Virus record (IMG/VR): IMGVR_UViG_3300042465_006693
Coordinates: 1 to 25,774 of that record
Length of the DNA stretch: 25,774 bases
Origin: a virus
Reading direction: 5' to 3' (one strand)
Below, in pieces: positions 4,832-19,648 of the stretch. Numbering within the stretch: the stretch's first letter is position 1; each line of letters begins with the position of its first letter. The notes under the pieces were generated by a model, which worked only from the letters and a program-made list of their open reading frames with translations, was not told the origin of the DNA and did no database searches. Both the position numbers and the translations under genes were made by a program.

Positions 4832-5374
4832 ATGCAAAAGCAAGATTTAATTAACACAATATTAGCCTGCACGGCTAAATTTCAAGAGCGTTTTGATAGC
4901 GATTCAAAGCCTGATGTAATGAAACGATACGAAATACTACAAAGTGAAGTTGAAGAAACTAATAAAGCAATTTCAGAAAATGATTTAGTTGAAATATTAG
5001 ATGGATTCTGTGACCAGCTTTATGTATTAGGTGGAAGTGTTGATAAATTCAAAGGTAGTAAATTTCAAGAAAATGCTTATTTAGAAAATATAAAAATTAT
5101 ATTAGAACAGGCTTTACAATACTTTAGTTTAGAATGTATTTTTGATGCTTTCAACGACGTTCATAAGTCTAATATGTCTAAGGTACATAAAGACCTATAC
5201 AGTGTATTTGATACTGTTAAAAAGTATCAATTAGATACAAATGATTTTAGGTTAAAACAAATATCTAAAGTAGAATATTTAGTTTATGATAATAAAATCA
5301 ATAAACTACTTAAGCCTGAAAACTATTTAAAAGCTAATTTAAAACCAATTTTAACTAAATATGGATATTTGTAA
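4832..5374 (+). CDS. MazG-like / PRA-PH-type NTP pyrophosphohydrolase
   Basis: 180 aa. The all-alpha NTP pyrophosphatase signature is visible: E-V-E-E at residues 39-42, then E-I-L-D-G-F-C-D at 54-61, acidic residues that hold Mg2+ and the triphosphate. A later DAFNDVHKSNMSKV segment (about 105-118) is typical of the phage branch of this fold. Relatives cleave (d)NTPs or aberrant nucleotides to monophosphate and pyrophosphate, in the cytoplasm. In phages they may balance or sanitise the nucleotide pool or lower alarmone levels; which substrate applies here cannot be read from sequence. The 3' end overlaps the start of a homing-endonuclease gene by 14 bases. Confidence 0.78.
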   Translation: MQKQDLINTILACTAKFQERFDSDSKPDVMKRYEILQSEVEETNKAISENDLVEILDGFCDQLYVLGGSVDKFKGSKFQENAYLENIKIILEQALQYFSLECIFDAFNDVHKSNMSKVHKDLYSVFDTVKKYQLDTNDFRLKQISKVEYLVYDNKINKLLKPENYLKANLKPILTKYGYL

Positions 5375-5876
5375 TGTAGAAATATTTAAAGATATACAAG
5401 GATATGAAGGTTTATATCAAATATCGAATTTTGGAAATGTTAAAAGTTTAAATTACAAACAAAGTAAAAAAGAATGTATATTAAAACCATACATAAATAC
5501 AACTGGTTATTATATAGTTGGATTGCATTGTAATAAAAAACAAAAAACATTAAAAATTCATAAATTAGTAGCTATCGCTTTTCTAAATCATACTCCATGC
5601 GGTTATAAATATGTTATAAACCATAAAGATTTAAATAAATTAAATAATCACGTTGATAATTTAGAAATAGTAACTCAACGTGAAAACGCTAATCATAAAC
5701 ATTTAAATAGTAGTAGTAAATATACTGGTGTTTCATGGAGAAAAGATAAAAATAAATGGTGTGCTTATATATGGATTAATAAAAAATTAAATCATTTAGG
5801 ATTTTTTATAAACGAAATTGAAGCTAATCAAGCTTATCAAAATAAACTTAAAGAAATAAATAATTATGGAGCGTAA
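5361..5876 (+). CDS. Free-standing homing endonuclease: NUMOD4 + HNH + AP2
   Basis: 171 aa with three modules. NUMOD4 is at residues 9-30 (FKDIQGYEGLYQISNFGNVK). The HNH region is at about 64-110, with KIHKLVAIAF followed by INHKD and N-N-H-V-D-N-L-E, the conserved His/Asn residues. A C-terminal AP2-type DNA-binding domain spans about 118-165 (YTGVSWRKDKNKW). These are mobile nucleases that cut one or both strands at a target and copy themselves by repair. It is wedged between the MazG gene and the next gene with overlaps of 14 and 11 bases. No intron signature is visible around it, so it is free-standing. Confidence 0.88.
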   Translation: MDICNVEIFKDIQGYEGLYQISNFGNVKSLNYKQSKKECILKPYINTTGYYIVGLHCNKKQKTLKIHKLVAIAFLNHTPCGYKYVINHKDLNKLNNHVDNLEIVTQRENANHKHLNSSSKYTGVSWRKDKNKWCAYIWINKKLNHLGFFINEIEANQAYQNKLKEINNYGA

Positions 5877-8988: not shown

Positions 8989-9185
8989 GTAAAATAGACA
9001 ACCTAATACAAAGTGCAATTCAACAATTGCATTTTAAACGTAAGCAAAAAGGCTTAAATCAGAAGGAATTAGCCGATTTAGTTGGGTGTAGTGATAAAAG
9101 TATTTCAAACTTTGAAAGCTTAAAAACTACACCAAGTTTGGAATTGTTAAAAAAATTGTGCAAAGTTTTAGAAATTGATTTGTAA
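8985..9185 (+). CDS. XRE-family (Cro/CI-like) HTH regulator, 66 aa
   Basis: A compact helix-turn-helix protein: KRKQKGLNQKELADLVGCSD (about residues 19-38) and K-S-I-S-N-F-E (39-45) form the recognition unit, followed by T-P-S-L-E-L-L-K-K-L-C, the usual fourth helix. It would bind operator DNA as a dimer. It lies directly before the helicase-methyltransferase gene and after the promoter at 8773, so it probably controls this transcript. Confidence 0.85.
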   Translation: MSKIDNLIQSAIQQLHFKRKQKGLNQKELADLVGCSDKSISNFESLKTTPSLELLKKLCKVLEIDL

Positions 9186-9186
9186 T

Positions 9187-11370
9187 ATGGAATATTCAGA
9201 GTTTTTAGAATCAAAAAAGAAAACATTTATTGAAAGTGGTTTCGATATTAATGAAAATGAGTTAAATATTAATTTGTTTGACTTTCAAAAGTTTGCAGTA
9301 AAAACAGCTTTATTTAAAGGCAAGTTTGCATTGTTTTTTGATTGTGGATTAGGTAAAACATTGATGCAACTTTCATGGAGTGAAGCGGTTTATAATCACA
9401 CAAATAAAAAAGTGTTAATATTAGCACCATTAGCAGTAGTTGAACAAACTAAATTAGAATCTGTTAAGTTTGGTATTTCATTAGATTGCTTTGATATTAC
9501 TAATTACGACCAGTTAAAAAATATTGAAAATATCAATCAATATTCAGGAGTTGTATTAGATGAAAGTTCAATTTTAAAAGGGCGTGACGGTAAGTTATCA
9601 AATTTAATTATTGAAACTTTTAAATATACGCCTTACAAATTAGCATGTACGGCTACACCTTCACCAAACGACCACATGGAATTAGGTCAGCATTCTGAGT
9701 TTTTAGGTGCTATGTCTTATCTTGAAATGTTAGCAATGTACTTTGTGCATGATGGCGGTGAAACAAGTAAATGGAGATTAAGAAAACACGCTAAAGATTC
9801 ATTTTGGAAATATGTATGTACGTGGTCAATGGCTTGTGATAATCCTAAAACATTGGGATTTGATGTAAAAGGTTATGATTTACCTGAAATTGAATTTATA
9901 GAACATTTTATTGAAGTTGAAAATAATACCGATAATCTTTTTGGCGATGTGGCAATTTCTGCAACTGATTTACATAAAGATTTAAACCGTTCTTTTGATG
10001 CACGTATTCAAAAAACTGTTGAATTAGTTAATTCAAATGATAAGCAATGGATTGTTTGGGGTCTTAAAAATAATGAAACTGATACTATTGTAAAATTGCT
10101 TAATAATGCAATAAATGTACAAGGTTCTGATAGTCCTGAATATAAAGCGAAACATTTAAATGGATTTGCTAAAAAAGACTTTAATACTTTGGTTACCAAA
10201 ACATCAATTGCTTCATTTGGTATGAATTACCAGCAATGTAATCAAATGGTTTTTATGTCTTATGATTTCAAGTTTGAAGCTTTTTATCAAGCTGTAAGGC
10301 GTTGTTATCGTTTCGGACAAAAAGAAAAAGTATTTATTCATATTTTGATTCCAAAAAGCCAATTAAATGTTAGACAATCTATTATTGAAAAACATCAAAG
10401 GCATATTGAAATGATTCAAGAAATGGCTAAATATTCAAGTGAAGCAAATTATAAAAGTTCAAAATCTAAATTTAAAGTTGTGAATAAAGAAATTAAAACT
10501 AACAATTATCATTTGCTCAATGGTGATTGCGTTCAAGAAACTAAAAAACTAGCTGATAATATTGCAGATATAGTTGTTTTTAGTCCACCTTTTGCTGAAT
10601 TATATGTTTATTCAGATAAAGAAGAAGATATGGGGAATGTTAGCGATTACAAGCAATTTGAAGAGCATTTTAAATATCTTATTCCTGAGTTGAAACGTGT
10701 ATTAAAAAGCGGTCGTATTTGTGCTATTCATTGCATGGATTTACCAATTCAAAAAGGGAAAGAAGGATATATTGGTTTACGTGACTTTTCAGGTATGTTA
10801 ATTGATTGGTTTCAAGAAAACGGTTTTATTTACCACTCACGTACAACAATATGGAAAAATCCTGTAACTGAAATGCAACGTACTAAAGCATTAGGATTAC
10901 TTCATAAAACTATTAAAAAAGATAGCTCTATGACTAGGGTAGGTATTCCTGATTATATTTTGTTTTTTAGAAATGAAGGTGATAACGAAATACCAATTAC
11001 TCACCAAGATACAGACCCAAGTAAAAAAGACTATTTACCAGTTGATTTATGGCAAAAATACGCTAGTCCTGTATGGTATGATATCGACTACTCACGTACA
11101 TTGCAATATCGTTCAGGACGTGATGGGAATGATGAAAAACATATTTGTCCTTTACAATTAGATACAATTGAAAGAATATTGCATTTATACTCAAATGAGG
11201 GTGAAACGGTTTTAAGTCCGTTCGGTGGTATAGGTAGTGAAGGGTATTCAGCTTTAAAAATGAATAGAAAATCAATATCTATTGAATTAAAAGAAAGCTA
11301 CTTCACTATTAATGCAAAAAATCATAAATCTTGCATTGAAGAAAAAAATAGCGTTTTATCACTATTCTAA
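9187..11370 (+). CDS. SNF2-type helicase fused to a DNA methyltransferase
   Basis: 727 aa from the ATG at 9187. The N-terminal half is an SF2/SNF2 ATPase: Walker A G-L-G-K-T (54-58), Walker B D-E-S-S (125-128), T-A-T-P-S (155-159), and motif VI Q-A-V-R-R-C-Y-R-F-G-Q (368-378). From about residue 445 there is an amino-methyltransferase: catalytic motif IV S-P-P-F (466-469), then a long middle with A-I-H-C-M-D, and SAM-binding motif I F-G-G-I-G-S-E-G (679-686) near the end. Motif IV before motif I is the beta-class order, giving N6-adenine or N4-cytosine methylation; S-P-P-F leans to N4-cytosine but does not decide. No nuclease motif is seen, so it is not a complete restriction enzyme. It may protect phage DNA from host restriction or mark it while translocating. 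Confidence 0.85.
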   Translation: MEYSEFLESKKKTFIESGFDINENELNINLFDFQKFAVKTALFKGKFALFFDCGLGKTLMQLSWSEAVYNHTNKKVLILAPLAVVEQTKLESVKFGISLDCFDITNYDQLKNIENINQYSGVVLDESSILKGRDGKLSNLIIETFKYTPYKLACTATPSPNDHMELGQHSEFLGAMSYLEMLAMYFVHDGGETSKWRLRKHAKDSFWKYVCTWSMACDNPKTLGFDVKGYDLPEIEFIEHFIEVENNTDNLFGDVAISATDLHKDLNRSFDARIQKTVELVNSNDKQWIVWGLKNNETDTIVKLLNNAINVQGSDSPEYKAKHLNGFAKKDFNTLVTKTSIASFGMNYQQCNQMVFMSYDFKFEAFYQAVRRCYRFGQKEKVFIHILIPKSQLNVRQSIIEKHQRHIEMIQEMAKYSSEANYKSSKSKFKVVNKEIKTNNYHLLNGDCVQETKKLADNIADIVVFSPPFAELYVYSDKEEDMGNVSDYKQFEEHFKYLIPELKRVLKSGRICAIHCMDLPIQKGKEGYIGLRDFSGMLIDWFQENGFIYHSRTTIWKNPVTEMQRTKALGLLHKTIKKDSSMTRVGIPDYILFFRNEGDNEIPITHQDTDPSKKDYLPVDLWQKYASPVWYDIDYSRTLQYRSGRDGNDEKHICPLQLDTIERILHLYSNEGETVLSPFGGIGSEGYSALKMNRKSISIELKESYFTINAKNHKSCIEEKNSVLSLF

Positions 11371-11639: not shown

Positions 11640-11960
11640 ATGAAAATAAAACTAAAGGGAATTTGGTTCGAGGTAACTTTAACTCCAATTGAAATCGAAG
11701 AGCAAAGTGTTGTTAAAAGTATCAATACTTTTGATGATGAAATGTTAGTAAATATTGAATCATTTATAAAAGAAAATGATTTAATTAATAAAAACATATT
11801 TAGATGGCATTATGAAGAGTTTAAAGAAAAGTATGATAAATACAATATTTTAACTACAAAAAAAATGACACTATTATTTCATAGATATGCTAAAGAAAAT
11901 GAATTAAATTTTAATAGTTTAAATTCAAATGGCAATAGATATTTGAGAATATCAAAATAA
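11640..11960 (+). CDS. Free-standing winged-helix-like protein resembling the primase C-terminus
   Basis: 106 aa. The C-terminal half (about residues 58-106) lines up with the last 50 residues of the primase-helicase encoded at 12353-14713. Both have an F-x-x-x-Y-E/Q-x-F/Y helix, then L-T-T/Q-K-K/R-hydrophobic-T (the wing approach), a long helix with Y, and a closing N-G-N-R-Y/W-L/V beta hairpin. In D5-type primase-helicases this region is a winged-helix DNA-binding domain. The N-terminal half is unrecognised. I infer a DNA-binding accessory of replication, or a regulator competing for the same site. The similarity is by eye and needs alignment. Confidence 0.5.
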   Translation: MKIKLKGIWFEVTLTPIEIEEQSVVKSINTFDDEMLVNIESFIKENDLINKNIFRWHYEEFKEKYDKYNILTTKKMTLLFHRYAKENELNFNSLNSNGNRYLRISK

Positions 11961-11972
11961 TTACTATATTTG
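11943..11972 (+). promoter_or_regulatory. Strong Bacteroidetes-type promoter for a small RNA
   Basis: TTG (11943-11945), 19 bases, TATATTTG (11965-11972), a full match to the consensus. It overlaps the last codons of the upstream gene and points into a region without a reading frame. Confidence 0.7.
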
Positions 11973-11976
11973 TAGT

Positions 11977-12084
11977 ACAAAGATAAACCGCCATTTATCT
12001 ATAAGAAATTAAAGGTTTAAACAATCTTTAAACCTACAAAACCGATATACTGAAGACTGGCGGGTCTGACGTTATCGGTTTTTT
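11977..12084 (+). ncRNA. Structured small RNA or leader with three hairpins and a possible kissing loop
   Basis: About 105 nt between its own promoter and a terminator. Hairpin 1: AGATAAA (11981-11987) with TTTATCT (11994-12000), loop CCGCCA. Hairpin 2: AGGTTTAAA (12013-12021) with TTTAAACCT (12027-12035), loop CAATC. Hairpin 3: AAACCGATA (12039-12047) with TATCGGTTT (12073-12081), enclosing an inner AGAC/GTCT stem with loop TGGCGG (12058-12063), then a run of T. All these stems are perfect. Loops 1 and 3 are exact reverse complements over all six bases, so a G/C-rich kissing interaction is possible in a very AT-rich sequence. The RNA may act in trans, or as a leader whose terminator controls the primase operon downstream. 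I do not recognise a known family with certainty. Confidence 0.65.
12039..12084 (+). terminator. Intrinsic terminator formed by hairpin 3 of the small RNA
   Basis: A 9-bp outer stem followed by TTTTTTG. Genes start only 13 bases later (12097), so read-through at this point would set expression of the primase operon. Confidence 0.8.
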
Positions 12085-12096
12085 GTTTTATTAAAA

Positions 12097-12351
12097 ATGA
12101 AAAATTTAGAAGAAAAGTATTTGTAGTTATTTAATCATTTATTTTCATTATATCCAAATAATGTAAAAATGGATGAGAATGGTTTTATTGTAGTTAATCA
12201 ATTTGATAATCTATTCTCTTATGATGAATATGAATTTTACAATGTCGATATTGATAGTTTTAAATTATCAAAAATTGTAAAGTCTTATTCTGAAGATTTT
12301 TATTGCGAATGGGTAGATTGTTTTTCTCAAACTATAAGTATAAATATTTAA
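12097..12351 (+). pseudogene. Small gene with an in-frame amber stop after codon 9
   Basis: From the ATG at 12097 the frame reads MKNLEEKYL, then TAG at 12124-12126, then continues open as LFNHLFSLYPNNVKMDENGF to the stop at 12349-12351. The part after the stop also has a start at 12169 (MDENGFIVVNQFDNLFSYDE), giving a 60-residue acidic, aromatic product. Either the true gene is 12169-12351, or an 84-codon gene carries a nonsense mutation, or the TAG is read through. TAG ends several other genes here, so genome-wide recoding is unlikely. Function is unknown; it ends two bases before the primase-helicase ATG. Confidence 0.45.
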
Positions 12352-12352
12352 T

Positions 12353-14713
12353 ATGGAAATCACTATTTACAAAGATGTAAAGGATACTAAAAGTGGGTTT
12401 GTAAGACCTATTTCTGTTGTATTGGAAAGAATAAGAATTGGAAAATCTGCTGAATTACTTAGTAAAATAAGAGTAGAAAAAGACAAAACAAAAAGAGATG
12501 CTTTAAAAATTAAACTACCTTCTTATTGTTTTAGTGGTACATTTTCCTCAAGAAATGATAACTCAATTATTAAACATTCAGGATTTATTTGTTTAGATTT
12601 TGATAAGTTTTTAAATGATGATTTAACAATTTGGAGAGAAAAACTAGAAAAAGACAAATATACTTATGCTTTATTTTTAAGTCCTTCAGGTAATGGATTA
12701 AAAGTATTAGTAAAGATACCAGCTGACAAAGATTATCATAGAGATTACTTTAGAGCCTTAGATATTTATTACAATTCTGCTTATTTCGATAAATCTTGTA
12801 TTAATATATCAAGGTTATGTTTTGAAAGTTCAGACCCTAATTTATATTTAAATGAAAATTCTGAATTATGGGATACTAGAGCAGAAGAAGAACATCATAG
12901 TATAGGAAATACTAATGCAGTATTAAGAGTAGTATCTGAAAATAGAATAATATCAAACTTAGAGAAATGGTTTAATAATACTTTTCCTTTGGCTGATGGT
13001 TCAAGAAATAATAATATTTTTAAGTTAGCAATGGCTTTAAATGATTTTGGTATTTCTAAAAATGAAGCTGAATCTGTTTGTTGTAAATATGCTGAAAGTG
13101 GATTTAATGATACTGAAATTTTACAAGTTGTAAGAAGTGCTTACAATAGAGGTATATCAACTTTTAATAGTAAATTCTTTGAAGATGAAATTACATCAAA
13201 GAAAATTGAAAGACATATTCGTGCCGGATCAACAATAGAAAAAATTAAACAAGAATTTGCAGAACACAATCCATTAGAGATTGAAAACGCTATTGAACAA
13301 ACAAAAGCTAAATTATCAATATCTGAATTTTGGGATTATGATAAGAATGGAAAAATAAGTTTAAAGCAATCAAAATATAAAGAGTTTTTAGAGCAAAAAG
13401 GATATGCTAAATTATACCCAACAGGTTCAACAAACTTTGTATTTGTAAAGATTGAAGAAAATTTAATTGATAATACAACAGGAGAATTTATAAAAGATGA
13501 TATTCTAAATTATCTATACTCAAATGCTGATTTTGGTACAAAGCCGTATGACTTAATGGCGGGTACTCCAAAATACTTTAAAGATGATTATTTAAGTTTA
13601 ATTGATACTGTAACCGTAGAGTTTAAAAAAGACACAGTCGACACTTCTTATCTATATTATAAAAATTGTGCTTTAGAAGTTACTAAAAACGGTGTAAAAC
13701 AAATTGATTACTTAGAACTTGATGGGTATGTGTGGAGAAAACAAATAATCAATAGAGAGTACAAAGAAATATCATTTGAATACTGTGTTTTTGAAAAGTT
13801 CTTAATGAAAATTGCAGGAGAAAAAGAAGAAAATTTTACTTCTCTTTGTAGTGTTATTGGCTTTTTAATGCACTCACATAAAACAAGTGCTAACAATAAA
13901 GCTATAATTTTCAATGATGAGGTTATAAGCGAAAATCCAAACGGTGGAAGCGGTAAGGGATTGTTTTGTAATGCAATTGGGCATATTAAGAAAGTAGCTA
14001 CAATTGATGGTAAACAGTTTGAATTTAATAAGTCTTTTCCTTATCAAACAGTTGGAGCAGATAGTCAAGTATTGATTTTCGACGATGTTAAAAAGAACTT
14101 TCAATTTGAAAACTTATTTAGTTTAATTACTGAGGGTATTATTCTAGAAAAGAAAAATAAAGATGCTATTAAATTGCCAGTTTCTGAAAGTCCTAAAGTA
14201 GTTATTACAACAAATTATACTATTGGTGGTGTTGGTGGTTCTTTTGATAGAAGAAAATTTGAAGTTGAATTAAGTAGTTATTTTGGTTCACATCATACTC
14301 CTTTAGATGAATTTGGTCATATGTTATTTGAAGAGTGGAGTGATTCTGAATGGCTTAAATTTGATAATTTTATGATTACTTGTTTACAATTATATTTAAG
14401 AAATGGACTTGTTAAACATGAATTTCATAATCTTGAATTACGTAAATTTATTAAAAGTACTTCTTTTGAGTTTAATGAGTGGATTGAAGATGCCGACAAT
14501 ATGCCATTAAATCAAAGATTAGTTAAGCAAGATTTGTTTAATAAATTTACTAACGAATATCAAGATTTTAAAAAGTGGCTTACTCAAAAAAGGTTTACTA
14601 TGTGGTTACATTGCTATGGTACATTTAAAGGTATTAAAGTAATTGAAGGCAATACAAACGGTAATAGATGGGTATTATTTGGCAGTGACTTAACAGAAGA
14701 AAACGTATTTTAA
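12353..14713 (+). CDS. Primase-helicase: VirE_N/BT4734-like primase domain, PriCT, SF3 helicase
   Basis: 786 aa. The N-terminal domain (about residues 1-180) matches the VirE_N/BT4734-like primase type common in Bacteroidetes mobile elements: a strand with L-D-F-D (81-84) holding catalytic acidic residues, then S-P-S-G-N-G (110-115) before K-V-L-V-K-I. A PriCT-like helical unit follows at about 217-265 (RNNNIFKLAMALNDFGISKN). The C-terminal part is an SF3/D5-type helicase: Walker A N-P-N-G-G-S-G-K-G (528-536), Walker B with D577-D578 after V-L-I-F, and sensor V-I-T-T-N-Y at about 615-620. The end is a winged-helix-like segment closing with N-G-N-R-W. It would make primers and unwind DNA at the phage fork in the cytoplasm. 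Confidence 0.88.
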   Translation: MEITIYKDVKDTKSGFVRPISVVLERIRIGKSAELLSKIRVEKDKTKRDALKIKLPSYCFSGTFSSRNDNSIIKHSGFICLDFDKFLNDDLTIWREKLEKDKYTYALFLSPSGNGLKVLVKIPADKDYHRDYFRALDIYYNSAYFDKSCINISRLCFESSDPNLYLNENSELWDTRAEEEHHSIGNTNAVLRVVSENRIISNLEKWFNNTFPLADGSRNNNIFKLAMALNDFGISKNEAESVCCKYAESGFNDTEILQVVRSAYNRGISTFNSKFFEDEITSKKIERHIRAGSTIEKIKQEFAEHNPLEIENAIEQTKAKLSISEFWDYDKNGKISLKQSKYKEFLEQKGYAKLYPTGSTNFVFVKIEENLIDNTTGEFIKDDILNYLYSNADFGTKPYDLMAGTPKYFKDDYLSLIDTVTVEFKKDTVDTSYLYYKNCALEVTKNGVKQIDYLELDGYVWRKQIINREYKEISFEYCVFEKFLMKIAGEKEENFTSLCSVIGFLMHSHKTSANNKAIIFNDEVISENPNGGSGKGLFCNAIGHIKKVATIDGKQFEFNKSFPYQTVGADSQVLIFDDVKKNFQFENLFSLITEGIILEKKNKDAIKLPVSESPKVVITTNYTIGGVGGSFDRRKFEVELSSYFGSHHTPLDEFGHMLFEEWSDSEWLKFDNFMITCLQLYLRNGLVKHEFHNLELRKFIKSTSFEFNEWIEDADNMPLNQRLVKQDLFNKFTNEYQDFKKWLTQKRFTMWLHCYGTFKGIKVIEGNTNGNRWVLFGSDLTEENVF

Positions 14714-14715
14714 TT

Positions 14716-15207
14716 ATGGAAGATAAATTTAAACCAAAATGTATAAATCATAATTTAGAATTTGTTTTATACATCATAAAAAATGGTAGTAAAAGATTAA
14801 TTAAACAATGTTTATGTTGTGGTGAAAAGCAAATGCAAAACTACAAATTAAATAGTGTTAAAAATATAAATTCAATTCCTTTGTACTCACTTGATTTATG
14901 GAATAAATATAAAGACAATCAATCTTTTAGCAAAAGTTTATATTATGAAGCTAAAAACGAAAGATTTGAAGAGTATGTAAATTATATTAATTCTGAAAAA
15001 TGGCAAATATTAAGAAAGCAAGTAATAAAAGAATATAATGGTTTATGTTTTTATTGTTTAGAAACTGCAAATGATGTTCACCATAAATCTTATGACAATT
15101 TTGGTAATGAGCCATTAAGTGATTTGGTTCTACTTTGTAGAAAATGCCATGAAGAAGAACATATAAATAACCCTAATTTAAGATACGTAAATAATGTACA
15201 ACCTTAG
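14716..15207 (+). CDS. HNH endonuclease with zinc-binding cysteines
   Basis: 163 aa. The C-terminal HNH unit is clear: C-F-Y-C (111-114), V-H-H-K (121-124), L-V-L-L-C-R-K-C-H (137-145) and H149, i.e. two CxxC zinc pairs around the catalytic His-His and a final His. A cysteine cluster near residues 32-35 (CLCC) plus C9/H12 suggests a second zinc site at the N-terminus. It sits between the primase and the DEAD helicase-nuclease with a 14-base overlap at its end. It could be a homing nuclease or part of DNA processing. Stop is TAG. Confidence 0.85.
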   Translation: MEDKFKPKCINHNLEFVLYIIKNGSKRLIKQCLCCGEKQMQNYKLNSVKNINSIPLYSLDLWNKYKDNQSFSKSLYYEAKNERFEEYVNYINSEKWQILRKQVIKEYNGLCFYCLETANDVHHKSYDNFGNEPLSDLVLLCRKCHEEEHINNPNLRYVNNVQP

Positions 15208-16795
15208 AGAACCTCAACAAATTGTTTATGATAAAATAAAACAAGCTATTACTTTAGGTCATAAAAAGATTTTAGTAATGGCTTGTACAGGATTTGGTAA
15301 AACAATATTGTCACACGAAATTATTAAAAATGCAAATGCTAAAAATAATAGTGTTCTATTTACTTCACACCGTATAGCATTGGCAAAGCAAACTAAAAAT
15401 AAGTTTAAATCTTTAGATGTTGATTATTTACAAGGAGAAAATAACGATTTTAAGCAAGATTATAAGTGTTTGGTAGCAACTATTCAAACATTAAATTTAA
15501 CTGAAATAAAACAACCTAAAATCGTAATTATTGACGAATGTCATTATGCTTATGATTCAGGATTAATACAAACAATATTTGATAAATTTAAAGGTAGTAT
15601 TTTCATTTGCTTAACTGCTACACCCACAGATAATAACGATTGTTTATTAGAAGGGTTTGATTATATGATTGACGACTATCAAACAATAGATTTAATTAAT
15701 TTAGGTTGGCTAGTTCCTTTTAAATCGTTTGCTCCATTTACTGCAAAAACAGAACAGATAAACGATGAAATTATAATCAAAGAAGATATAAACAATTCAA
15801 TTGTAGAAAATTATATTAAGTATGGAGAAAATAGAAAATTCATAGTTTTTGCAAGTTCAAAAAAACATTGTTATGATTTAAAAGAATCATTTAAAAAATA
15901 TGGATTAAATACTGAAATTATAACCGCTGATACGACAGAAAAACAAAGAGAACAAATACTAATTGATTATAAAAATAGTTTATTACATGGTTTAATTTCA
16001 ATTGAAATACTTACTGCAGGTTTTGATGAACCAAGTGTATCATGTGTAATTATGGCTACATTTACAGTTCAATGGAAAAAGTATATTCAATGTGCTGGGC
16101 GTGGTATTAGATTATTTGGAAATACTTTAGAAGAATCAATTGCAAACGGTAAACCTTATTGTGTTTTTCTTGATTTCTTTGGTAATATTGAGCGTCATAA
16201 TTTGCCTGAAACTCGAAAAGAATTTAAAATTAAACAACAATTTTCACGAATAATTGATAAAGAATATACTTTAAATTCAGATGTAAATCAAGTTAAAAAA
16301 GCATTTGAAACAATTACAGAAGAAAAAAAGGTTTACCTAAAAGAAGTTGGAAAATTATTAGATTTATACGAAAATAAAGTTTACACTAAAGAATCAGATT
16401 TGCAAGAAGATGTAAATAATTTCTTAGAAAAAACTAATTATTTTTGGTGGAGACAAAACAGTGGTAAAATGTTTAAAGATGGGCGTTGGGTACATTTTAC
16501 TTCAAAACATGGACTACCTGACTGTACTGTATTTTATAATAAATCTAGTTTATTCTTTGGCTTAGAATTAAAATTACCTAAAGGTAGATTAACAGAACAT
16601 CAACAAAAAACATTACCTGAAATGGTTAATAAGAATGTTTTGTTTTTTATTTGTGAATCTGTTTATCATGTTTATAAAGCTATTGAACATATTGAATTAA
16701 ATATTATTGATAACGATGAATTATTTATTGTTAAAAAAGAAATTTATAATTTACCTGAATGGCAATTAATGTTAAGGCGTAAAATTAAATTATGA
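15194..16795 (+). CDS. DEAD/DEAH (SF2) helicase fused to a VRR-NUC nuclease
   Basis: 533 aa. The helicase motifs are in order: Walker A T-G-F-G-K-T (32-37), Walker B D-E-C-H (114-117), L-T-A-T-P, and motif VI Q-C-A-G-R-G-I-R (299-306). From about residue 395 the protein is a VRR-NUC domain of the PD-(D/E)XK fold: W-W-R-Q-N-S-G, then G-L-P-D (440-443), and E-L-K-L-P-K-G (458-464) with T-E-H-Q-Q after it. In stand-alone form VRR-NUC proteins cut branched or flapped DNA. Fusion with a helicase suggests processing of replication or recombination intermediates. Start at the ATG inside the HNH gene's end, in another frame. Confidence 0.9.
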   Translation: MYNLREPQQIVYDKIKQAITLGHKKILVMACTGFGKTILSHEIIKNANAKNNSVLFTSHRIALAKQTKNKFKSLDVDYLQGENNDFKQDYKCLVATIQTLNLTEIKQPKIVIIDECHYAYDSGLIQTIFDKFKGSIFICLTATPTDNNDCLLEGFDYMIDDYQTIDLINLGWLVPFKSFAPFTAKTEQINDEIIIKEDINNSIVENYIKYGENRKFIVFASSKKHCYDLKESFKKYGLNTEIITADTTEKQREQILIDYKNSLLHGLISIEILTAGFDEPSVSCVIMATFTVQWKKYIQCAGRGIRLFGNTLEESIANGKPYCVFLDFFGNIERHNLPETRKEFKIKQQFSRIIDKEYTLNSDVNQVKKAFETITEEKKVYLKEVGKLLDLYENKVYTKESDLQEDVNNFLEKTNYFWWRQNSGKMFKDGRWVHFTSKHGLPDCTVFYNKSSLFFGLELKLPKGRLTEHQQKTLPEMVNKNVLFFICESVYHVYKAIEHIELNIIDNDELFIVKKEIYNLPEWQLMLRRKIKL

Positions 16796-18339: not shown

Positions 18340-18590
18340 AACTAGAACAAGCTAAAACTATTTGTTTAGATCACGTTGAATACGTGTTAAATGGTACTAA
18401 AAACGATTACACACCTGAACAAATTGGAATAGCTATACACACCATTGCAATAGCTATTAAACCAATAATAGATTATAATTATAAAGTATTGGTACAGTAC
18501 AACGAGTGGCGTAGAGGTTACTTACAAGAATATCCATTAAACTCAATTTATAATATGAATATTTTGAAAGAATCTATATATTTGTTGTAG
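18336..18590 (+). CDS. Hypothetical helical protein, 84 aa
   Basis: Starts MKLEQAKTICLDHVEYVLNG; contains I-G-I-A-I-H-T-I-A-I-A-I-K-P-I, an alternating helix of moderate hydrophobicity rather than a membrane segment. Last gene of its operon; its final codons overlap a promoter-like TATATTTG (18577-18584). Stop is TAG. No family recognised. Confidence 0.6.
   Translation: MKLEQAKTICLDHVEYVLNGTKNDYTPEQIGIAIHTIAIAIKPIIDYNYKVLVQYNEWRRGYLQEYPLNSIYNMNILKESIYLL
18555..18584 (+). promoter_or_regulatory. Possible promoter ahead of the virion module
   Basis: A perfect -7 element TATATTTG (18577-18584) with ATG instead of TTG at the -33 place (18555-18557), 19 bases apart. As at 11943, it overlaps the end of a gene and points into a hairpin-rich stretch. 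Confidence 0.45.
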
Positions 18591-18690
18591 ATTTAAATTT
18601 AAGCATGATATACAAAGTTGGCAAGAACTAATGTATCAACAATAAGCAATTAAGTAGGAGTTGGCGATCCTTTTTAGTTGCTTTTTGTTT
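18591..18690 (+). ncRNA. Second structured RNA or leader, two hairpins
   Basis: Hairpin A: TGAT..ACA (18606-18614, two-base bulge) with TGTATCA (18632-18638), capped by AGTT/AACT with loop GGCAAG. Hairpin B: AAGCAATTAA (18644-18653) with TTAGTTGCTT (18674-18683, one G-U pair), enclosing AGGA/TCCT with loop GTTGGCGA, followed by T residues. Hairpin B has the same build as hairpin 3 of the RNA at 11977-12084: a terminator stem with a 4-bp inner stem and a TGGCG loop. No reading frame is seen. It could be a small RNA or a leader/attenuator of the structural operon starting at 18722. Confidence 0.5.
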
Positions 18691-18721: not shown

Positions 18722-19648
18722 ATGAACGGTACTGTAACACGCCAAGATTTTACAATCATAAGAAGTAATCCAAACCAAACGAATACTTCTGTAATTACTC
18801 AAGATTTTGAGGATTGTTGCTATGTACTACCTGCACTTGCTGAAATTGAAAGTAAAACATCGGATTTAAAAAACGATAAACATTCTGTTATTTGGTTCTT
18901 TTCAAATGCTTTTACTTTTGCAGAATTAATCCTACAAAAGAAAGTTAACGGTGTATGGACTGATGCTTACCCTTTAAGTTTCGATAATACTTACGGTACT
19001 AACTTTGTTTATGGATTTTATAATACAATCTATGAAGAAAAAGCAATCGGTTATTTAATAGATTGGTTCTTAGTATTAAATGACTTAGGAATTGGTAATT
19101 ATAGAGTTAAATGTAATGCTACTCAAATAGATAGTACAATAAATAATTACTACTCTTTTGAATTTTGCCTTAATGAATATTCAGATTATAGAGCAAATGA
19201 AACGGTACGTCTGGAATGGTACAAGAATGGTAATGTAGGTTCGTTATTAGATGATACTAAAAAAGAAGATTTTGGAACGCTAAACTATTATAACAGTATT
19301 AGACTACCAAAATCTATTTTCGGTCGCTTAAAACCTACTAAAACTAAGAATTTTACACGTTATCAAACAGGTGAAGATGTAAGGTTATTTGATGCTGATG
19401 AAATTGAATATACTCTTAACATTGATTCAGCACCATTGTGGCTAGGTAAGTTTATTAACTTTGATGCTAACTACTCAAATAATCTTACTATAACTGATTA
19501 CAATGAGCGTAATCATGAAGTATTTATACAAAAACAAGTAATTTCAAAAACATCATTTTCAAATGAATATGATTACGATGTTAAATTAATTGACTTTGAA
19601 TTTACGTATCAACCAAGATTTAATAATTTTAAACATAACTACGAGTAA
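18722..19648 (+). CDS. Conserved Bacteroidetes phage protein, probably structural
   Basis: 308 aa, beta-rich throughout, with no catalytic motif. The layout (an N-terminal F-T-I-I-R-S-N segment, a middle D-L-G-I-G-N-Y-R-V-K, a block N-E-T-V-R-L-E-W-Y, then I-F-G-R-L-K-P and a late L-T-I-T-D-Y-N-E-R-N-H) resembles a family I associate with Bacteroidetes phage structural regions. Function is not known to me. It lies first in the virion transcript, directly before TerS, an unusual place for a tail or baseplate protein. The ATG at 18722 is the first in frame after the terminator; its stop overlaps the next start. Confidence 0.62.
   Translation: MNGTVTRQDFTIIRSNPNQTNTSVITQDFEDCCYVLPALAEIESKTSDLKNDKHSVIWFFSNAFTFAELILQKKVNGVWTDAYPLSFDNTYGTNFVYGFYNTIYEEKAIGYLIDWFLVLNDLGIGNYRVKCNATQIDSTINNYYSFEFCLNEYSDYRANETVRLEWYKNGNVGSLLDDTKKEDFGTLNYYNSIRLPKSIFGRLKPTKTKNFTRYQTGEDVRLFDADEIEYTLNIDSAPLWLGKFINFDANYSNNLTITDYNERNHEVFIQKQVISKTSFSNEYDYDVKLIDFEFTYQPRFNNFKHNYE

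Follow-up and report, generated by a model that had tools for sequence, protein, structure and literature searches.

We describe a short phage RNA leader that lies ahead of a primase/helicase gene and carries two perfectly complementary hairpin loops, the second of which sits in the leader's own terminator. It occurs in the window, by which we mean the whole 25,774-nucleotide stretch of IMG/VR virus record IMGVR_UViG_3300042465_006693 that was analysed. It belongs to a large RNA family, absent from Rfam, whose carriers are phages of Flavobacterium-type bacteria. That the two loops form a kissing pair is almost certain, and the evidence points to an RNA switch that has so far gone undescribed. 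In our preferred reading, to which we give about an even chance, the pair works in cis to attenuate genes for replication and for endonucleases. The parts of the element and the frames that follow it are listed here, numbered from the first letter of the window.

11943–11945, + strand: TTG, the −33 element, 22 nt upstream of TATATTTG (read from sequence)
11965–11972, + strand: −7 element TATATTTG, of the Bacteroidetes TANNTTTG type (read from sequence; TATATTTG begins most elements found)
11977–12084, + strand: predicted leader RNA, about 105–108 nt, its extent deduced from the two flanking signals, promoter and terminator (fold z = −5.3)
11981–12000, + strand: hairpin 1, 7 bp, AGATAAA-CCGCCA-TTTATCT (sequence, fold and stem covariation in relatives L256/L257)
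11988–11993, + strand: kissing loop K, CCGCCA, complementary to 12058–12063; partner loops covary family-wide
12013–12035, + strand: hairpin 2, 9 bp, AGGTTTAAA-CAATC-TTTAAACCT; optional, present in only some members
12038–12084, + strand: intrinsic terminator with a 10-bp outer stem, an inner AGAC/GTCT stem and a U-run; the stem covaries in L255 and L256/L257
12038–12082: terminator arms AAAACCGATA...TATCGGTTTT, with inner part AGAC-TGGCGG-GTCT
12058–12063, + strand: terminator loop TGGCGG, the partner of K, invariant together with CCGCCA in L255–L257
12079–12084: T-run of the terminator
12097–12351, + strand: first downstream frame, with ATG at 12097, TAG after nine codons (MKNLEEKYL, then stop) and open again from the ATG at 12169
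12353–14713, + strand: primase/helicase gene (BT4734-like_N, DUF5906, PHROG 28855), the presumed main target

The first-pass annotation had read a consensus promoter, hairpins with complementary loops and a U-run terminator around a non-coding stretch, and a check of the sequence found each of these at the positions above, with CCGCCA and TGGCGG complementary throughout. The leader folds at −28.8 kcal/mol (z = −5.3; RNAfold, dinucleotide shuffles), and none of 200 shuffles was as stable. A generic sigma-70 scan of the leader region found promoter-like sites to be no commoner than in shuffles; a Bacteroidetes-type promoter is supported by the concentration of TTG exactly 22 nt upstream of TATATTTG across 47 non-redundant leaders, the same spacing as in the window. 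The site ahead of the primase operon, also recognized in that first reading, fits an order that is conserved among relatives, namely promoter, loop hairpin, terminator with partner loop, and start codon. The nearest ATG 3′ of the terminator (12097) is not the start of the primase, which itself begins at 12353. Reassignment of TAG in the interrupted frame at 12097 was considered and is unlikely, since TAG already terminates four of the 30 window genes, and 12097–12351 has the appearance of a gene that was broken or re-started, not of a recoded one.

A homologue search seeded by the primase (BT4734-like_N, DUF5906; PHROG 28855) yielded 80 viral loci. When these were scanned for the combination of promoter, hairpin and terminator, the loops being required to match, many elements with differing loop sequences were returned. 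Because this search itself used complementarity, the comparison was repeated blind to the loops, with leaders picked by promoter, terminator and start codon only and their loops compared afterwards. In a first blind set, at least six complementary nucleotides were present in 60% of 63 non-redundant leaders, compared with 2.6% of swapped pairs. A larger blind set, anchored on three different genes and restricted to TATATTTG-only promoters, gave complementarity of at least six nucleotides in 54 of 59 non-redundant leaders (91.5%) against 4.6% of swapped pairs, with same-sense loop matches at 1.7% and all 59 leaders oriented along the gene strand. Among the exceptions, locus L062 has one mismatch in seven, L275 is a true element for which the wrong hairpin was chosen and L243:1380 lies inside a gene; L243:134 and L250:16553 have no complementarity.

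These blind tests, together with a stricter detector, replaced a first scan that had no promoter requirement and was too permissive, giving many control matches. The stricter detector returned about 20 matches with scrambled loops against 74 real ones, mostly 6-mers, so that not all of its single 6-nt matches are certain; it also misses imperfect loops and unusual promoters, and the element counts given here are therefore lower bounds. The IMG/VR records searched are often fragments, and direct blastn of the 161-base element against phage records returned only short, weak matches.

Evidence for the kissing loop also comes from the way in which the two loops change. A profile with the loops masked recovered 23 scaffold homologues, and the loops covary, since 22 of the 23 keep complementarity at seven of seven positions across nine different loop sequences. 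In an alignment of 18 of these homologues the loop–loop helix is 95.2% paired, with a covariation score of 0.487 as against 0.097 when shuffled and at most 0.125 when slid. At three loop positions, 25 cells are changed on both sides and none on one side only. Independent variation of the two loops, which the first-pass annotation had named as the outcome that would speak against its kissing loop, is thus not what homologues display. A MAFFT alignment of diverse loop-masked members misaligned the loops and was dropped in favor of this narrower loop-blind set.

The same behavior is visible among individual relatives. L028 and L035 share a scaffold that is about 90% identical, and their loops are altered in concert. 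The nearest relatives of the window, L255 (helicase 99% identical) and L256/L257 (91%), keep CCGCCA/TGGCGG, and their hairpin 1 and terminator stems vary in compensated fashion; in hairpin 1 of L256/L257 an A-U pair has become U-A and another G-C around a fixed loop. The element qualifies as a kissing-loop RNA, since the Watson-Crick complementarity between its two hairpin loops covaries, and its structure is well supported. Three near-identical leaders of HNH genes (L063:5531, L070:5528 and L064:4534) carry the loops GCGTGGAAAC, GCGTGAGAA and GCCTGAGAA, each with a partner loop to match.

The loop-agnostic loci contain 91 non-redundant elements, among which 68 different loop sequences occur. 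The loops are 61% GC, compared with 29% for the remainder, and the mean duplex energy of the loop pair is −9.7 kcal/mol. In most members K begins 17–22 nt from the first base of the −7 box. The distance from K to its partner clusters near 39–43 nt and near 55 nt, and most elements have an ATG 0–25 nt past the U-run, usually within 0–20 nt. Each of the parts expected of an intrinsic-terminator leader was found, that is a promoter, a leader, a terminator and a gene on the same strand. In a scan blind to the promoter, 162 terminators with complementary loops were found before an ATG, and 144 of the 162 had a promoter where one would be expected. Pairing of other parts of the leader with the terminator arms does not exceed chance, which argues that no classical antiterminator competes with the terminator. 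L242:6964, L246:2711 and L249:1488 stand directly 3′ of another terminator (CCTAGT..AGGCTTTT) and have no visible TANNTTTG promoter, and they may therefore depend on read-through from upstream.

Comparison with Flavo-1 or another known family, as the first-pass annotation had suggested, led nowhere. Rfam 15, Flavo-1 included, gave no match in the window at the curated cut-off, only two chance-level matches in region 11900–12170 at E up to 10, and a single match, a tRNA in L052, among eight related loci. A search of the open-access literature found no paper describing such an element.

Several known systems share some of its features. The CI immunity RNA of satellite phage P4 is a short RNA that is cut out of a longer leader and is linked to Rho-dependent termination; it pairs with complementary stretches of that leader and governs termination upstream of replication genes, as the RNA described here may do. 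The present leader differs in having a dedicated promoter and an intrinsic terminator. Plasmid replication is controlled by ColE1 RNAI/RNAII and by pT181 attenuation through kissing loops of 6–8 nt, in which loop changes alter specificity. The complementarity of such copy-control RNAs is automatic because the partners come from opposite strands, whereas both phage loops lie on one strand, in one predicted transcript, and must change in parallel. The packaging RNA of phi29, a phage RNA of about 120 nt that likewise has two complementary, covarying loops, forms an intermolecular ring in packaging and is present in one copy per genome. Unlike that single RNA and its phi29-type ATPase, the present elements precede early genes, a contig may have as many as three that differ from one another, and the large terminase of the window phage is of an ordinary type (TerL; PF04466/PF17288). 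The lambda pR′–tR′ region (6S RNA, Q antitermination) also combines a strong promoter, a terminator shortly downstream and phage genes next; it differs in that the lambda leader has no loop–loop pairing, and no Q-like factor was identified for the phage leaders.

The closest published logic is that of a cobalamin riboswitch, the hydroxocobalamin riboswitch env8, in which the regulatory hairpin contains the ribosome site and its loop is kissed by a loop of the domain upstream (L5–L13). That contact requires a bulge in the interloop helix and a ligand bound by a large aptamer (PMC10907184). In both leaders an upstream loop contacts, or in ours is predicted to contact, the loop of a regulatory hairpin. 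The phage leader differs in having no aptamer-sized domain, a terminator as the partner and pairing that is strictly Watson-Crick and hypervariable, and no Rfam match to a cobalamin aptamer core was obtained in the window or the eight related loci.

The arrangement of the leader enabled us to propose a model for its action. In this model, hairpin 1 would fold first, exposing K as a GC-rich loop of 6–9 nt. The partner loop would then emerge from RNA polymerase ahead of the 3′ arm of the terminator, and because that arm emerges later, K would be free at that moment to pair with the partner loop, giving an intramolecular kissing-loop structure on the nascent RNA just before terminator closure. 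The loop contact would set the frequency of termination, and hence of read-through into the replication and endonuclease genes. As to direction, we propose only tentatively that early contact hinders closure of the terminator and leads to read-through, and that termination is restored when K is occupied; the occupant could be, for example, extra copies of the same short RNA as phage genomes multiply. The anatomy, the conserved and covarying complementarity, the promoter and terminator signals and the gene context are observed, whereas the intramolecular contact, its effect on termination and the direction of that effect are what we infer.

A role in termination fits the finding that complementarity ties nearly every such leader to its terminator. 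The kissing pair is compatible with the terminator stem, however, so that an effect on termination is plausible rather than forced. Two further observations count against the attenuator: a few leaders of the same build lack complementarity (L243:134, L250:16553 and the one at window position 18577), and loop turnover is faster than a purely cis fold would lead one to expect, with nine different loops in ten leaders of helicase-methylase genes.

This turnover bears on the main rival of the attenuator, a self-specific RNA acting in trans, which we regard as possible if doubtful. Here the terminated short RNA would accumulate and pair, loop to loop, with nascent leaders of the same kind, following the logic of the P4 immunity RNA and the plasmid copy-control RNAs; it would silence the gene that it precedes, or that of a co-infecting phage whose loops are identical, the loop serving as a specificity tag. 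Loops are indeed replaced wholesale between close relatives, which favors such an RNA somewhat: among the ten helicase-methylase leaders, whose genes are 69–88% identical, K is common to only one of 45 pairs. At one site, L027:4423 and L028:4377 have flanks that are 91% identical over 2 kb and leaders that are unrelated, both with complementary loops, apparently through replacement of the whole leader, and L028 and L035 (above) have kept their scaffold while changing both loops. Against this, the loops GATACAG, GTGGTAG and GTCGTCG are well conserved within lineages, albeit replaced in others, and the partner loop in cis is far nearer than any copy in trans.

Loops within single genomes speak to the same question. 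None of 76 within-genome pairs of elements shares a loop, even where, as in L127 and L150, similar scaffolds in one genome differ by one compensated position. This privacy had appeared significant in a sample selected on one loop, a significance that was given up when the loop-agnostic control gave an expectation of 2.1 shared pairs and P of about 0.11; that these genomes repeat no loop is at most suggestive. The carriers described in the literature are, moreover, virulent (PMC7077304), so that lysogenic immunity is inapplicable to them. We think it rather unlikely that each private loop pair is an identity tag, by which the short RNA would recognize a leader, whether of its own genome or of a competing phage, only if the tags are identical. 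If it were, replication and endonuclease genes would be under self-specific RNA control, and paired loop changes would split related phages into RNA compatibility groups.

Two further readings are less likely. The leader might be a free-standing small RNA, its kissing fold serving only for compaction or stability, with a target elsewhere (a host mRNA or protein) and a downstream gene that is there by chance or is served by another promoter. This we consider improbable, even though the element has its own promoter, a strong terminator and a stable fold and its GTCGTCG loop type precedes many unrelated genes: an ATG lies within 25 nt of the U-run in most elements, nearly all are on the gene strand and the same kinds of target gene (primase, helicase, endonuclease) come up repeatedly. 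The variation of loops and stems is, furthermore, so great that no fixed outside target could be recognized by base pairing. Complementary loops on one molecule would also permit chaining, K pairing with the partner loop of the next molecule into rings or chains in the manner of the phi29 packaging RNA, and in the packaging RNAs of phi29 relatives the loops do change together. Such an oligomer is nevertheless very improbable, as several elements with different loops occur per genome, each preceding a gene, the window phage has an ordinary terminase and no Rfam family was matched. That the complementarity of two such short loops is due to chance, which does produce six complementary bases at the rate seen in swapped pairs, is practically out of the question, having been refuted for the family by the blind tests in related phages; the loop pair of the window is, in addition, invariant in its three nearest relatives despite changes in the stems.

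The genes downstream of the elements comprise primases, DEAD/ResIII helicases, helicase-methylases, HNH/NUMOD4 and GIY-YIG endonucleases, AntA/KilA-N antirepressors and small genes of unknown function, so that this multi-copy, hypervariable family extends well beyond the primase gene. Phage contigs carry from none to three detected elements, in the early region. The GTCGTCG version was found in 65 viral contigs, where the genes that follow it are of many different kinds, and it occurs in 34 records of Flavobacterium phages of strains LMO6 and LMO9. No Bacteroidetes genome was found to carry the GTCGTCG pattern in its chromosome; matches in four contigs, of Sphingopyxis, Parcubacteria, Synergistales and Alphaproteobacteria, were taken as chance. 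Nonlabens P12024S, Polaribacter Leef_1, Maribacter Panino (first 50 kb) and MW202828 yielded no element, and Cellulophaga phi46:1 has only a weak 6-nt candidate.

Cultured carriers include the virulent Flavobacterium phages mumin and snusmum and the F. columnare phage FCV-1. The LMO6/LMO9 phages have been described as virulent in a paper whose main text is silent on RNA, promoters and terminators (PMC7077304). The element is widespread and unannotated in cultured phages, in a phage group whose regulation is little known. Dozens of different natural kissing pairs built into terminators, hypervariable yet complementary, make an unusual set, one that could supply useful parts for RNA design and that makes two questions testable, whether loop–loop contact on nascent RNA tunes intrinsic termination and whether RNA loops serve as specificity tags of phages. 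In FCV-1, GTAGTGC/GCACTAC precedes a NUMOD4-like gene, and inspection found the pair GTAGAGAG/CTCTCTAC in the gap that precedes the gene at 35995.

In the window, a fused helicase-methylase (9175–11370) is 83.5% identical to its counterpart in FCV-1, and a ResIII helicase with a VRR-NUC domain occupies 15194–16795. The early region also holds two endonuclease genes, NUMOD4/HNH at 5361–5876 and HNH-like at 14716–15207; no kissing-loop leader was detected at either, frequent as these are on such genes in relatives. A second promoter–terminator leader (18577–18690) precedes a 308-aa gene at 18722. Its loops are not complementary, and GTTGGC occurs in it twice in one orientation; L002 has, at the corresponding position (12640), the loops TATCAAAC/GTTTGATA, complementary over 8 nt.
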